This document shows, one piece after another, positions 1 through 5,558 of a stretch of 24,594 bases of DNA (the first letter of the stretch is position 1; the number at the start of each line of letters is the position of its first letter). The notes under the pieces were generated by a model. The model searched no databases. It was not told the origin of the DNA and saw nothing but the letters and a program-made list of their open reading frames with translations. The position numbers were made by a program, and so were the translations under genes. The stretch comes from a virus. The stretch lies in the IMG/VR virus record IMGVR_UViG_3300023273_000461, positions 1 through 24,594 of that record. One strand, 5' to 3'.

Positions 1-1516
1 ATAGTAATCCATTTACAGAAATCATCCACTTACCAAGTCTAACAGCATCTACTACCGACCTATCAACTGCAGTAACAATACCACCTCTAACCAACCCATC
101 ATCGACTGGGAATCCAAATCCCCACTTTTGAGGTTCACCTTTATCGATTGGTTTTCGTTGAATACCTCTCATAATCAATGGATGTGCAAACGCAGCCGTT
201 CCTAAATTAAATGCATCATCTCTAAGATTGTATTTGTGATACATTTCATCTAAGAATGAAGGTGAGTTCTTCATCTCATGCAATTTAGATATGCTTGGAT
301 TTGTTAATTCAGTATCTACATAATACTTTGTATCAAAGTTATATCTCTGAGTCAACCCAGTTTCTTTACCCACTTTGAACTTACCATATCCAGCTCTGAA
401 CGATAATCCGTTAAATGCCCCACTAAAGTTACTATATAATGAACTTACATTATCAAACTGAGTATTATCAGGATTTATACCAACAAATTTAGTTTTAGTT
501 TTATCAGTAAAGTTCTGAGTAAATCCAATTGCCTTATCGTTTGTAAACATATCCACAGATGGTGGGGTAACCGCCTGCTTATCCTTGTTGTTTGGGGTTT
601 TGAAGTTTTTTGGAGTAGTCTCGCCTAAGAATTGTGCACCTAAATCCATATCGCTTGGAGTAGTTTCACCTAAGTACTGAGATTGATTATTCATCTCAGT
701 TGGGGTTGTTTCACCTAAGTACTGAGATTGTGGTGCAGCTGAATTTGGAGTTGTTTCTCCCAAATACTGCGATTCATTGTTCATCTCAGTTGGAGTTGTT
801 TCTCCTAAGAATTTTGATTCTGGTGCAGCTGACTTCTGAGTTGTTTCTCCTAAGAATTTTGATGTATTATCCATAGGGGTTGGGTTGGTTTCACCCAAAA
901 ACTTAGATTGTGGTGCTGCTGATGTAGGGGTTGTTTCTCCGAGATAATTTTCGGAATTATCCATTGTTTTTGGTGTTGTCTCCCCTAAGAATTTCTCAGA
1001 ATTATCCATTTTAGATGGATTCGTTTCCCCTAAAAATCTCTCCGATGTATCCATACGATTTGGAGTAGTTTCCCCTAAAAACTGCTCTGATGAATCCATT
1101 TTTGATGGTGTTGTTTCCCCTAAGAATTTTTCTGAGTTATCCATCGGTTGTGGATTTGTTTCACCTAAGTAGTTTGGTGAATTATCCATCTTCTCTGGTG
1201 TAGTCTGACCTAAATATCTCTGTTCCAAACTCATTCGAGTTGGTGTAGTTTCGCCTTTGAACTTCTCTGAGTTATCCATAGGTGTTGCTGATGTTTCACC
1301 TTTGAACTTATCACCCTGCTGAACTTTATTTGGGTTTACACCCTCTTTATTTGTTGTTGTTTGGGAACGTGGGATTTTCGGCGCTGAATCTACCAGTGAA
1401 CTCAATGGTGTTTGGTTCTGGTTTGATTTTATATCCTCTCTCTTCTTAGATTCCAAAGGTTCTTTCTTTGGCATTCTAAACTTGGACAAATCCGATTTCA
1501 TATCTTTTAGTGCCAT
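1..1516 (-). CDS. Tandem 15-residue-repeat protein downstream of tape measure (3' end beyond window)
   Basis: The frame is open from ATG at 1516 to the window edge, giving 505 residues without a stop, so the C-terminus is missing. The ATG overlaps the tape-measure stop by one base (TAATG), which implies translational coupling. Residues 1-70 are Lys/Asn/Gln/Pro-rich. Residues 71-310 are sixteen back-to-back 15-residue repeats of the type FLGETTPSKMDNSEK. Residues 311-505 look globular, with aromatic and glycine residues and a stretch around WGFGFPVDDGLVRGG near the visible end. I recognise no known domain. The position directly after the tape measure and in its transcription unit suggests a tail or baseplate component; this is inferred from context only. 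The reading frame is certain because the repeat period stays in phase over 720 bp. Confidence 0.85.
   Translation of the reverse strand, partial: MALKDMKSDLSKFRMPKKEPLESKKREDIKSNQNQTPLSSLVDSAPKIPRSQTTTNKEGVNPNKVQQGDKFKGETSATPMDNSEKFKGETTPTRMSLEQRYLGQTTPEKMDNSPNYLGETNPQPMDNSEKFLGETTPSKMDSSEQFLGETTPNRMDTSERFLGETNPSKMDNSEKFLGETTPKTMDNSENYLGETTPTSAAPQSKFLGETNPTPMDNTSKFLGETTQKSAAPESKFLGETTPTEMNNESQYLGETTPNSAAPQSQYLGETTPTEMNNQSQYLGETTPSDMDLGAQFLGETTPKNFKTPNNKDKQAVTPPSVDMFTNDKAIGFTQNFTDKTKTKFVGINPDNTQFDNVSSLYSNFSGAFNGLSFRAGYGKFKVGKETGLTQRYNFDTKYYVDTELTNPSISKLHEMKNSPSFLDEMYHKYNLRDDAFNLGTAAFAHPLIMRGIQRKPIDKGEPQKWGFGFPVDDGLVRGGIVTAVDRSVVDAVRLGKWMISVNGLL
587..1306 (-). repeat. Sixteen tandem 45-bp coding repeats
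   Basis: 720 bp divide exactly into sixteen 45-bp units encoding 15 residues each, with no indels. The consensus is aromatic (F or Y), L, G, E, T, T or N, P, two variable residues, then MDNS plus two polar residues. Copies 1-2 have K or variant residues in place of L-G-E-T-T-P positions, and the last copy degenerates after the proline (KNFKTPNN). Codons vary between copies at synonymous sites (for example GGT/GGA/GGG for the glycine). This indicates old copies kept alike by selection on the protein rather than recent slippage. Confidence 0.95.
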
Positions 1517-4191
1517 TAGCTAAATCCTCTTGTTGATACACTCTGTCTACTTTGTACTCTTGTTATCTTCTGTACTGCTTTACCATCGATGTTTAGTACA
1601 ATAGGTTGTGCTTTAATATCACTGCGTAACCCTTTTATCTCTTCTAATAATTCTGCGTTACCACCACCACTACTATCTGAACTCTCAGAATCACCGCCGC
1701 CAAAACCGAAGAACTCACCAAGACCCATTAATGTAGGTGCTAGAGCTGCTAATCCAGCTATTGCGCCGAATATTGGTATTGCGAGTAATCCCGCACCAGC
1801 AACTGCTACCAACCCACCACTTATAGAATATAATGCGCCTGATAATTGGTACATTGGTGATACTAAATCGCCCATACCACTCATAGATTCAGTAACTATC
1901 GACATGTTATCCGCTACCGCCGCCAAACCATCACCAGCATCTTTAACTCCTGGTCCAACTTTTGATAATTCTACTATTTGGTCTACTAATCCACCACCAA
2001 ACCAACTAGCAAATGCACCTACTAATAATGATGCTGAGAATGCCAACATACCAACCGATGCCAGCATCAAAGCAGGTCCTAATAGTAACAATCCTGCGAT
2101 TGCTTCTGGTGTTATCGCACCTAACATTGTTACAAATCCATCGGCTATTGCCTGAATGATTGGTGGAACTGCACTCATAACACCTACAATGATATTACCA
2201 AATGCTTCTACCAATGGTGATAACAAAGATAATGCGTATGCGAATGGAATCATCGCAGCACCTAATAATGCCATTAATCCAATACCAATCAAAACAAACA
2301 CCGCCGTACCCGGATTACCAAATGCTGCCAAACCAGCGGCTAATGCTGTAAAGTTTGCTTGAATTATAGGTCCAGTTGCTGGGATGGACATGAATGCTAA
2401 GAATGGAATTGCTAATAATCCTACTGCAAGTGCTGGCCCAACCAACATCATTGTTAATGCACCTAATGCACCTTGCGACATCTGAGCCAAACCTCTACCT
2501 AAACCTCCAAAGTTTTCTTCCAATGCCTTTAGTTTAACTTTACCCATAAACAATAGGAATGGGATGGATGGAAGTGCTATAACAAATGCTGGTCCTGCTA
2601 ATGCAACTACACCAACACCTGCTAATACTTTAGCATCACCCATTTCTCTTAAACCATCGGCTAATGATTTTAATCCACCACCACTACCTTGTGCGGCTTG
2701 ACCTGCTTGCCCTCCGGCATCTTGTGTAGATTCCATTCCTGGAACTCCACCACCACCTCCACCTTTTTTCTTAAATGGATTCAGATTTCTCAGATTACCA
2801 ATACCTGTACCTCTACCCTGCATAGTATTTAGGATAGCCATTTGTGCGATATATGCAATCAATCCAGTAGTTGCTTCTTTTAAACCACCAGGCACTCTTT
2901 CCCACAGCTCCATTGCGGTCGTTGCGGCATCGGCTAGTGGGCCAGATTCTTCAACAGTTGCACTTTGAATTTGAATCATCTCTGCTAACTTATCAGCACT
3001 CACACCAATAGCTTCCGCATATATCTCTTGCCCACGTGGTCCGAGTTTGGCGAATTGTTCAGCGGACATCTTGGTCTGTTCCATGGCATCCAGTAGTGCA
3101 CTATCGTCGCCTGTATTCTGAAACTCCAAAGCGGCTGCCTGCATAGCACTCATACCTTGAATTTGGTCTTGTGTTAACTTACCCTGTAACATCACTCTGG
3201 CTTTAGATTGAGCTTTCATAGTACTTTCGATATCCATCATATTATTAGCAATATCCTGCATATCTGAAAGGTGTAATCCTTGCTTACTTAGTTCGATTGT
3301 TTTTTTAGCGAGTAACTTTATTTCTTTTTCGGTTAGTCCCACTATTCGTCTCTGCTGAGCTCCTAAATCTTTGAATACACCACCCGCCATCACACCCGCA
3401 TCTTTAGCCATATTTTTGATGTCGGTAGTTAGTTGTTTAGAATCACCTGTAGCACTATCAAATGATTGTGCTAACTTAGCTGCATCTTCACCACCAACAC
3501 CAAATTTAGTCATTTCTGCCATTGCGTTACGCATATTGTTCGTTAACCCAGCAGTTGTACCCATTGTTTCTGCAAAATCTCTAGTTGCTTGATTCAACTC
3601 CTCTACACTAAATCTAGAAAAAAGAATTTCCGGTGATAGGTTTTTGAACCCTTGAAGCATTGCTTGCCCACCATCCATACCCAATTCTTTATTTAGTTCT
3701 GATGCGAATCCAATTGTGTTTTGAAATGCTGCTCCAATCTGTTCAGTTAATCCTTTGAATAGAGCCATAGATGCAGCAATACCAGTACCTGCTTTGAGCA
3801 TATCACCCATAGTACCTAAACTGGTGTATAGACTATCATTAGCATCTTCGCGATACCCATTTATTTCATCAGATAAATCTTTAATCTGTTTCTCTTTCTT
3901 AACTAACTCTTCGGCATCCTCTAATTGTTTAAGTAGTGCGATGCCAATATCTTTATTAACACCCTTATACTTCTCAATTATCTCATTTTTCTTTTCTTGT
4001 ATTGATGTGAGTTTTGATTCCAAGTCCTTCTGACCTTTTATCTCAGCTATCAACTCCTTTTGAGCAGTGGTTAGATTTCCAGTCTTTGTAATCCTATCTT
4101 GCAATATGGCAGACAGATTTCTTTGAATCGCCTCTTCACCTTTTACAGCTGCGATTCGTTTTTGTGTGTCTTTATTGAAATCTTCTGCCAT
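1516..4191 (-). CDS. Tail tape measure protein
   Basis: An 891-residue protein that would set tail length and occupy the tube lumen. Residues about 10-115 are charged and coiled-coil-like. Residues 115-450 are Ala/Met/Gln-rich and helical. A glycine-rich linker spans about 477-506. Several long hydrophobic stretches follow (about 521-550, 572-602, 628-660, 697-730 and 790-825), separated by Gly/Pro-rich turns, as is usual in tape measures that also contact the host membrane. The last 45 residues are polar and charged (AELLEEIKGLRSDIK, then VLNIDGKAVQKITRVQ), resembling the C-terminal baseplate-anchoring tail of this class. It follows the tube gene and a chaperone-like pair, which is the standard tape-measure position. 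The ATG at 4191 lies 13 bases after the preceding stop with only a weak GAG upstream. Identification rests on size, composition and position rather than a catalytic motif. Confidence 0.85.
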   Translation of the reverse strand: MAEDFNKDTQKRIAAVKGEEAIQRNLSAILQDRITKTGNLTTAQKELIAEIKGQKDLESKLTSIQEKKNEIIEKYKGVNKDIGIALLKQLEDAEELVKKEKQIKDLSDEINGYREDANDSLYTSLGTMGDMLKAGTGIAASMALFKGLTEQIGAAFQNTIGFASELNKELGMDGGQAMLQGFKNLSPEILFSRFSVEELNQATRDFAETMGTTAGLTNNMRNAMAEMTKFGVGGEDAAKLAQSFDSATGDSKQLTTDIKNMAKDAGVMAGGVFKDLGAQQRRIVGLTEKEIKLLAKKTIELSKQGLHLSDMQDIANNMMDIESTMKAQSKARVMLQGKLTQDQIQGMSAMQAAALEFQNTGDDSALLDAMEQTKMSAEQFAKLGPRGQEIYAEAIGVSADKLAEMIQIQSATVEESGPLADAATTAMELWERVPGGLKEATTGLIAYIAQMAILNTMQGRGTGIGNLRNLNPFKKKGGGGGGVPGMESTQDAGGQAGQAAQGSGGGLKSLADGLREMGDAKVLAGVGVVALAGPAFVIALPSIPFLLFMGKVKLKALEENFGGLGRGLAQMSQGALGALTMMLVGPALAVGLLAIPFLAFMSIPATGPIIQANFTALAAGLAAFGNPGTAVFVLIGIGLMALLGAAMIPFAYALSLLSPLVEAFGNIIVGVMSAVPPIIQAIADGFVTMLGAITPEAIAGLLLLGPALMLASVGMLAFSASLLVGAFASWFGGGLVDQIVELSKVGPGVKDAGDGLAAVADNMSIVTESMSGMGDLVSPMYQLSGALYSISGGLVAVAGAGLLAIPIFGAIAGLAALAPTLMGLGEFFGFGGGDSESSDSSGGGNAELLEEIKGLRSDIKAQPIVLNIDGKAVQKITRVQSRQSVSTRGFS

Positions 4192-4204: not shown

Positions 4205-4408
4205 TTATAGAGATGTTTGATTCCAGTCTACTGGTTTTATGTTGTATTTTTTAAGGATTCTCTGATACTCTGGGTCTTGAGTAAGCTTTTCAAGTTCCTT
4301 TTCTTTGTTCTGCTTTTTGATATTTTTGAAAAACCTATCAATAAATCCTTCAGATAACCCTTGGTTTCTGAAATGTTCTGTTAAGTTTGTTTTTGTAAGT
4401 CTAGCCAT
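4205..4408 (-). CDS. Small charged protein upstream of tape measure
   Basis: A 67-residue protein starting MARLTKTNLTEHF. The start at 4408 is preferred to the longer open frame beginning at 4459: it has GGAG about ten bases upstream and lies 28 bases after a promoter-like box, whereas the longer start would lie inside a terminator hairpin. The sequence is Lys/Glu-rich and helical, with a central segment SEGFIDRFFKNIKKQNKEKE. There are no membrane segments or cysteines, and I do not recognise a named family. It is the first gene of a unit with the tape measure, so a role in tail assembly is likely but unproven. Confidence 0.75.
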   Translation of the reverse strand: MARLTKTNLTEHFRNQGLSEGFIDRFFKNIKKQNKEKELEKLTQDPEYQRILKKYNIKPVDWNQTSL

Positions 4409-4435
4409 ATTAGGTACTCCATTTGTTCTATATAG

Positions 4436-4444
4436 TATAAATAT
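4436..4444 (-). promoter_or_regulatory. Late-promoter-like box ATATTTATA
   Basis: Reads TATATTTATACTATAT on the coding strand, 28 bases before the ATG at 4408 and immediately after a terminator hairpin. It is one of eleven matching boxes, all upstream of minus-strand starts. No -35 element is visible. Confidence 0.55.
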
Positions 4445-4470
4445 AGAAATACCCAACAAAATTGTTGGGT
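4445..4470 (-). terminator. Putative intrinsic terminator after the chaperone-like pair
   Basis: On the minus strand ACCCAAC, a six-base loop and GTTGGGT form a perfect 7-bp stem followed by ATTTCT. The U-tract is short, so the terminator may be leaky. The stop of the upstream ORF lies 8 bases before the hairpin. Confidence 0.6.
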
Positions 4471-4477
4471 ATCGCTA

Positions 4478-4753
4478 TTATCTTCTTCTTGATTTTGCTT
4501 TCTTCATTTCTTTATCATGTGCCTTCTTTTCAGCTTCTTTGAATTCTACAATTTTAGTAATGTAGAATGTTCTAGCCCAAACAGGCATATTATAAACATC
4601 ATTCCATGTAAATCCACCATTTCCGTGATAAATTAAATCAAAAAGTTGTGAGTGAAGATGCTTTCTGTAATTAGGATTTAGGCCAAAAAAACCCGATATC
4701 CATCGGCAGTAGCATCTCTCTCCTTTCCCCGGTCTCCTCAGATATAAATTCAT
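4478..4753 (-). CDS. Putative frameshift extension of the tail-assembly-chaperone-like gene
   Basis: The frame is open from ATG 4753 to TAA 4478 and overlaps the 3' end of the 295-residue gene by 83 bases in the +1 frame. Its first 25 or so residues are an alternate-frame reading of that gene. The ATG at 4753 has no Shine-Dalgarno, and no ATG, GTG or TTG follows until a methionine far inside the conserved-looking part (GGFTWNDVYNMPVW). The downstream part, from about PNYRKHLHSQLFDLIYHG to a basic tail KKAKSRRR, looks like a real protein. It most likely reaches expression as a C-terminal extension made by ribosomal frameshifting near a seven-T run (4685-4691) or at the codons just after it. 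This is the position of gpG/gpGT-type chaperone pairs in other tailed phages. Alternatives are a sequencing indel in the homopolymer or independent translation. Confidence 0.7.
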   Translation of the reverse strand: MNLYLRRPGKGERCYCRWISGFFGLNPNYRKHLHSQLFDLIYHGNGGFTWNDVYNMPVWARTFYITKIVEFKEAEKKAHDKEMKKAKSRRR

Positions 4754-5558
4754 ATGTTAAATCAACATCTGGAACAACTGTATTTATGTACGCTCTGAGG
4801 GCCCTTGAGTCTACCGCAAATAATTCGTTATCCACAAATTCGTTTATTAGTTTCTGGTCGGTTTCACCATCAACTGATGTGATTGTGTTTTTTAACCTCG
4901 TCGTAAGTTGCCTGTCGGTTGTATCTTTCATCCGGCGAGCGGCTTTCTTAGAATCCTCTAACTGATGTTTGATTTTTCGCTCCTTACTTTCAGTTAATGC
5001 CGAAAATGTAATCTTTCTTTTGGATTGTGGTAACTCAAACTCAAATTCATTTTTGTTTAGTTCGGTTTGATTTGAACCATCGTACTCAACTGCTTCGAAT
5101 TGAGTTAAATCAATAACATCTTTTTGCTTATTTCCTGGTGAGGTTGGGTCATCAATCTCAACTTCGTAATCCTTACCATAACCTAAGATTCTGGCGGCAA
5201 TCATTACTGCGTTCTTATCACCCATTGTGATATCAACGTATTTGACTGGCTTACCTTCACCATTTGAAATAATTAGGGATTGGAACAATCGGTCTAATAC
5301 CGAACCATCTTTGATATATGACTGTGTTGTAAGAATATCCTCTTCTTTTGCGGTCATATATTTCATTTCCACTTTTCCTGATGATAGTGGATTATCCTGT
5401 GGGTATATCAACCCTCTGGATGGTAACTCTACGATTTCAGTAGGGAACTTATAATCAGATACCTTCTGTTGTTCGTATTGTTGTTTAGCCATCTCCACCA
5501 TTTCCTGATTGGAAGTTGGTGCAGTGTACTCATCTTGTAATTGCTTTTCTGTACTCAT
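4671..5558 (-). CDS. T4 baseplate-type protein / tail assembly chaperone-like
   Basis: A 295-residue protein resembling the T4 base plate protein family (gp26/gp51-like in annotated relatives). A conserved-looking core runs from about residue 38: FPTEIVELPSRGLIYP, then GKVEMKYMTAKEEDIL and a leucine-rich helix. The middle holds an acidic region and a Lys/Arg-rich helical segment (SKERKIKHQLEDSKKAARR). It ends in MDIGFFWPKS, an FFWP ending I associate with this family. It has no signal peptide or membrane segment. It has its own promoter-like box and lies immediately upstream of the tape measure with an overlapping +1-frame ORF at its 3' end, which points to chaperoning of the tape measure during assembly. 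The baseplate-family assignment is moderate; the chaperone role is inferred from context. Confidence 0.7.
   Translation of the reverse strand: MSTEKQLQDEYTAPTSNQEMVEMAKQQYEQQKVSDYKFPTEIVELPSRGLIYPQDNPLSSGKVEMKYMTAKEEDILTTQSYIKDGSVLDRLFQSLIISNGEGKPVKYVDITMGDKNAVMIAARILGYGKDYEVEIDDPTSPGNKQKDVIDLTQFEAVEYDGSNQTELNKNEFEFELPQSKRKITFSALTESKERKIKHQLEDSKKAARRMKDTTDRQLTTRLKNTITSVDGETDQKLINEFVDNELFAVDSRALRAYINTVVPDVDLTYEFISEETGERREMLLPMDIGFFWPKS

Follow-up and report, generated by a model that had tools for sequence, protein, structure and literature searches.

Organization of the locus

Does the open reading frame that follows a gp26-type gene in another frame, just ahead of a tape measure candidate, belong to the same gene, and if so, how do ribosomes reach it? 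The window, i.e. the whole analysed stretch of 24,594 nucleotides of IMG/VR record IMGVR_UViG_3300023273_000461, contains two such overlapping ORFs, here called A and B (Table 1). We read them as one tail assembly chaperone (TAC) gene of a T4-related phage in which a programmed +1 frameshift would yield a minority TAC-NC fusion, and give this reading a probability of about 0.9.

Table 1. Features of the A-B locus and its surroundings in the window.
Feature	Position	Strand	Remarks
ORF A	4671-5558	minus	gp26-type TAC-N; normal product ends in DIGFFWPKS, then stop
ORF B	4478-4679	minus	C-terminal TAC domain, gp51-C-like; +1 frame; stop at 4480-4478; three predicted helices
Favoured slip site UUU UUU UGG (Phe, Phe, Trp)	4683-4691	minus	contains the seven-T run 4685-4691
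Pro codon CCT	4680-4682	minus	near-invariant (CCT in 98/99 representatives); alternative +1 slip site
Terminator-like hairpin directly after ORF B	4443-4478	minus	from inverted self-match and sequence
Small ORF between ORF B and tape measure candidate	4205-4414		
Tape measure candidate, downstream	1516-4191	minus	from length and position only; immuto annotates this position as tape measure

In the +1 frame B encodes NPNYRKHLHSQLFDLIYHGNGGFTWNDVYNMPVW and stays open to its stop codon. The overlap reads TTT TTT TGG CCT AAA, and its T run is the only run of at least seven T on the coding strand of the window. A single ATG lies upstream in the B frame, at position 4753 inside ORF A, and has no Shine-Dalgarno sequence; such sequences are present at many other genes of the window. 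A sequence-only reading of this DNA had described the gene ending in FFWPKS, the +1 ORF, the T run and the lack of a usable start or Shine-Dalgarno sequence for B. All of these features were confirmed, and many relatives have no upstream start for B at all.

The hairpin after ORF B is strong and is followed by a T-rich stretch; it sets the A-B gene apart from both the small ORF and the tape measure candidate. The latter is adjoined by a gene (positions 2-1516) for a protein rich in FLGETTP-type repeats.

Identity of the two proteins

ORF A matched phrog_150 with an E-value of 1.8e-8, and the A profile matched a gp26/PF12322 set from T4-like phages, Thornevirus and jumbo phages at 99.7% (E = 1.2e-25). 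PF12322 matches the relatives L005, SP-15 and KVP40; a direct Pfam search with the window proteins A and B gave no match (for A against PF12322, none at E up to 1). A PDB sequence search with the A profile returned nothing useful. The structural model of A (pLDDT 89.6) had its best PDB match in the HK97 tail assembly chaperone 2ob9, with a middling Z-score of 5.5 and an rmsd of 3.2 over 78 residues (Z of the next match 3.5), and its top viral structure matches were gp26-type baseplate hub proteins. The sequence-profile comparisons identify A as a gp26/PF12322-type TAC-N, a tail assembly chaperone of the T4-like kind.

For B, a profile-profile comparison with the gp51-C set of KVP40-type phages gave 96.7% (E = 4e-10). 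The small-domain members of KVP40 and Bellamy match phrog_634, annotated as 'baseplate hub assembly catalyst'. A direct comparison of B with the single T4 gp51 sequence was not significant. The AF2 model of B (pLDDT 90) comprises three helices, for which a structure search found weak helical matches only. Profile comparison thus identifies B as the gp51-type C-terminal TAC domain of KVP40-type phages.

Conservation of the frame relation

A tblastn search for the A-B pair, followed by six scans of viral contigs, yielded several hundred loci; those from one collection are mutually related, and the counts given here are not counts of independent events. By tblastn the pair was found, with B offset by +1, in Microcystis phage Mel-JY01, in the Flavobacterium phages immuto and in one huge-phage genome. 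Both parts are present in 421 loci, and in 415 of these B follows in the +1 frame; an in-frame A-B fusion occurred in none of 436 loci. Many loci have a B-frame stop codon just 11 bases ahead of CCT, so that a shift could take place only within the Phe-Phe-Trp-Pro block or in the few codons that remain before A ends.

The offset runs the other way in the remaining six of the 421 loci, which include LR756511 and the lineage of L257 and L263 (included twice). In L257 (2727-3049) and L263 (2715-3010) B has its own ATG after the stop of A and has gained an N-terminal extension together with it. The own-start relatives have lost the shift pattern, their codons being TTC TTG TAT CCT and TTC CTT TGG CCA, and the own-start pair is nested within the +1 clade as sister to a shifted phage. 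This lineage would be a natural replacement of the frameshift.

Could B then be a separate protein throughout, with initiation at a start codon of its own or through translational coupling? L257 and L263, with an ATG and extra N-terminus right after the stop of A, speak for this, as does the TAATG at the junction in KVP40 and 121Q. We nevertheless consider it very improbable. In 116 of the 297 distinct loci the stretch from the upstream stop to where conserved B begins has no ATG, GTG or TTG (no ATG in the B frame in 201 of the 297), the own-start lineage is nested and derived, and separate translation leaves the synonymous constraint at the overlap (see below) unexplained. As a general rule, an independent start of B is ruled out by the 116 startless loci. 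Homologues with an independent start had been named in advance as evidence against a frameshift; they exist in L257 and L263, but as one nested, derived lineage only.

Two loci, L292 and L388, carry an in-frame TAA within a conserved A gene, which is either an assembly error or real.

Selection on B and on the overlap

The dN/dS ratio was 0.20 for B and 0.21 for A (77 pairs), which marks B as a protein under purifying selection. Synonymous constraint was scored at 235 codons of A in 122 representatives sharing less than 90% identity. Over these codons the excess had a mean of 0.12 and a standard deviation of 0.18. The four most constrained were Pro 308 (1.00), Phe/Leu 306 (0.89), Phe 305 (0.81) and codon 309 (0.72). 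In a codon tally of 99 representatives (less than 80% identity) the Pro codon was CCT with a single CCA, and seven other Pro columns were mixtures of CCT, CCA, CCC and CCG. The second Phe codon was TTT in all 79 representatives having Phe there. Few nearby bases outside TTTnTTTGGCCT are equally conserved.

The frame arrangement is far beyond chance, judging by the 415 of 421 loci with B in the +1 frame and by the overlap, where the most synonymously constrained codons of A lie. Comparison of relatives likewise shows that the pair is one coding unit, that its +1 offset is conserved and that the overlap is under selection. What we infer from these sequences is that ribosomes carry out the shift, at which codon and how efficiently they do so, and what part it plays in building the tail. 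The frameshift candidate of the sequence-only reading, understood here as a conserved programmed link between a gp26-type TAC-N and a second domain ahead of the tape measure, has strong comparative support.

Conserved accessory signals were sought as well. Downstream RNA structure was unconvincing, with a mean z of -1.0 (+8 to +88) against -0.6 upstream, and 0.2 for the window. Neither a Shine-Dalgarno-like stimulator nor a purine-rich block upstream of the slip site was conserved among relatives. The lack of such a stimulator and of strong 3' structure counts against a programmed shift.

The probable slip site

Among the 297 distinct loci the block reads TTT TTT TGG CCT in 187, TTT CTT TGG CCT in 79 and TTC TTT TGG CCT in 12; minor forms have CTA as second codon, CTT as first, or TAT, TAC or TTC in place of Trp. 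A seven-T homopolymer is error-prone and can make RNA polymerase slip, so that a sequencing error or transcriptional slippage might mimic the arrangement. We find this scarcely credible, since hundreds of independent assemblies, and isolate records too, show the same frame relation, and the TTTCTTT and TTCTTTT forms have no seven-T run. These observations refute it as a general explanation.

An in-frame UUU-Y is present in every genuinely shifted locus. Nearly all of the 297 have YUU in the P site followed by U, with mostly UGG and rarely UAY as the A-site codon. A review describes UUU_Ynn as particularly liable to shift +1 in bacteria and notes CUU_U in RF2 (PMC5009743). For yopN-tyeA a UUU-UGG site was proposed, but its mutation did not abolish the YopN-TyeA product (PMC3789692); a match to UUU-UGG alone therefore proves little.

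The same pattern recurs in the Thornevirus group of SP-15, LIS04 and GXN1, which have a +1 second domain, UUU-Y at the same Phe pair and no common Pro. In SP-15 (L268), LIS04 (L269) and GXN1 (L006) this apparent +1 second domain after the gp26-type gene is unannotated. The three phages have NCC CGA TTY in common, shortly after the Phe pair.

The slip probably takes place at the Phe-Phe pair, on UUU-Y or CUU-U. The same fusion could also arise by a +1 slip at the Pro codon, with peptidyl-tRNA-Pro moving from CCU to CUN; both products would then share FFWP, and the junction would read FFWP-NPNYR. In its favour, CCT is the single most constrained codon of A, and the aromatic residue of the A frame (W, Y or F) is kept while the B-frame residue at this place varies (G, T, I or S). 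Moreover, Listeria phage PSA shifts +1 on a Pro codon, at CCC sites (PMC5009743). A slip at Pro nevertheless appears unlikely to us. L305 has CCA with an intact and conserved B, and in SP-15 and LIS04 this Pro is missing. Any base may follow CCT (G 223, A 36, T 25, C 13 in the 297 distinct loci), and the constraint on TTT TTT is left unexplained. We prefer the Phe pair to CCT since UUU-Y occurs in every shifted locus, while the intact L305 has CCA.

Some observations stand against the Phe pair. The constraint on CCT equals that on the Phe codons, and a slip at Phe explains this only via the Leu of the B frame. In addition, five distinct loci whose second codon is CTA are unable to slip there and would need the first codon; they have UUU-C one codon earlier. 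GXN1 also has UUU-C.

A third route to the same frame is a -2 shift on the T run, as in Mu (PMC5009743), which would add one residue to the fusion (GFFFGLNPNYR). The seven T of the window would allow perfect re-pairing of tRNA-Phe. We consider this shift improbable: the TTC TTT TGG forms and GXN1 would re-pair on UCU with a mismatch in the middle position, and the CTT and CTA forms re-pair less well. Across the cases, then, a +1 slip at the Phe pair would fit all, a +1 slip at CCU nearly all, and a -2 shift fails for TTC TTT. The sequence-only reading had left open a +1 slip at the seven-T run or at CCT AAA and a -2 slip; the +1 direction is the best reading, with the Phe pair favoured, and -2 is disfavoured by the TTC TTT TGG relatives and GXN1.

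Proposed mechanism

For the favoured +1 slip at the Phe-Phe pair we propose the following course. Most ribosomes would stop after GFFWPKS and release TAC-N. At the Phe-Phe pair a minority would move ahead by one base and continue in the +1 frame. With the next codon, mostly UGG, waiting in the A site, the peptidyl-tRNA would leave YUU and pair with the overlapping UUU; in some relatives it would leave UUU for UUC. At the slip site of the window, tRNA-Phe would re-pair one base downstream on UUU. The resulting TAC-NC would carry the gp51-type C-terminal domain, with GFFGLNPNYR at the junction. By analogy with gpG and gpGT of lambda, TAC-N may coat the tape measure protein and TAC-NC may recruit the tail tube.

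Predicted shift direction among related phages

In a tree of A the clade of the window (28 shifted rows and the own-start pair) has a support of 99/90. The +1 shift looks ancestral in this clade, because its early branches L248 (TTC TTT) and L005 (TTT CTA TTC) are +1. The deep branches of the tree are long, and the number of switches of direction is uncertain.

KVP40, Bellamy, 121Q, PA5oct, Atu_ph07 and Vibrio 2.275 resemble the A-B gene in that gp26 ends in Phe-Phe and is followed by a gp51-C-like domain. They differ in that gp26 ends on T TTT TTC, over which the second domain lies in the -1 frame. In these phages (L270, L271 and L273-L276: KVP40, cyanophage Bellamy and four jumbo phages) a -1 frameshift is likely, and records usually list the second part as a gene of its own.

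With odds slightly better than even, a broader picture emerges. A large environmental clade of T4-related phages would use a +1 shift at UUU-Y without a stop codon, a Shine-Dalgarno sequence or strong RNA structure, at the very Phe-Phe pair where KVP40-type phages have a -1 heptamer. The direction would thus have switched at a fixed position of the protein, and one lineage would have moved on to separate initiation.

Comparison with known systems

Frameshifting in TAC genes of the lambda gpG/gpGT type is -1. The A-B gene resembles gpG/gpGT in having a short TAC-N and, presumably, a rarer TAC-NC from overlapping frames by the tape measure gene. As in that kind of gene, the second ORF, startless in many relatives, lies in a different frame and is conserved, and a slippery sequence is conserved in the overlap. 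Unlike in lambda, all shifted relatives of the clade have the second frame at +1, in place of a -1 shift on X XXY YYZ, and the protein belongs to the T4 gp26 family.

The T4-like TACs gp26 and gp51 (Vladimirov et al. 2022, as cited in later papers) are of the same protein families as A and B; T4 has separate genes for them, whereas the window has one gene with a probable frameshift. Some T4-like phages are stated to dispense with frameshifting and to carry two genes, one short and one long and fused (PMC10885494). Consistent with this statement, T4 gp51 matches the gp26 family over its whole length plus the small second domain.

The site shares with RF2 (prfB) CUU-U and with UUU-Y sites the slip from YUU-U into UUU; in contrast to RF2 it has no A-site stop codon and no conserved Shine-Dalgarno-like stimulator. 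Mu (-2) and HSTV-2 (+1, likened by direction only) also have TAC genes with shifts other than -1 (PMC5009743). Both belong to different families, and the direction of Mu is disfavoured here, the -2 re-pairing failing in the TTC TTT forms.

T4-like phages have been singled out as an exception without TAC frameshifting, and a conserved +1 arrangement is found here in the same protein family, across about 300 distinct related phage sequences. Relatives add -1 signals, separate starts and gene duplication, a natural series for studying how shift direction evolves at one site. The system also lends itself to asking how a +1 site can function with no stop codon. In current records the A-B gene is split or cut short; in those of immuto and Mel-JY01, for example, the second part appears as a hypothetical protein of its own.
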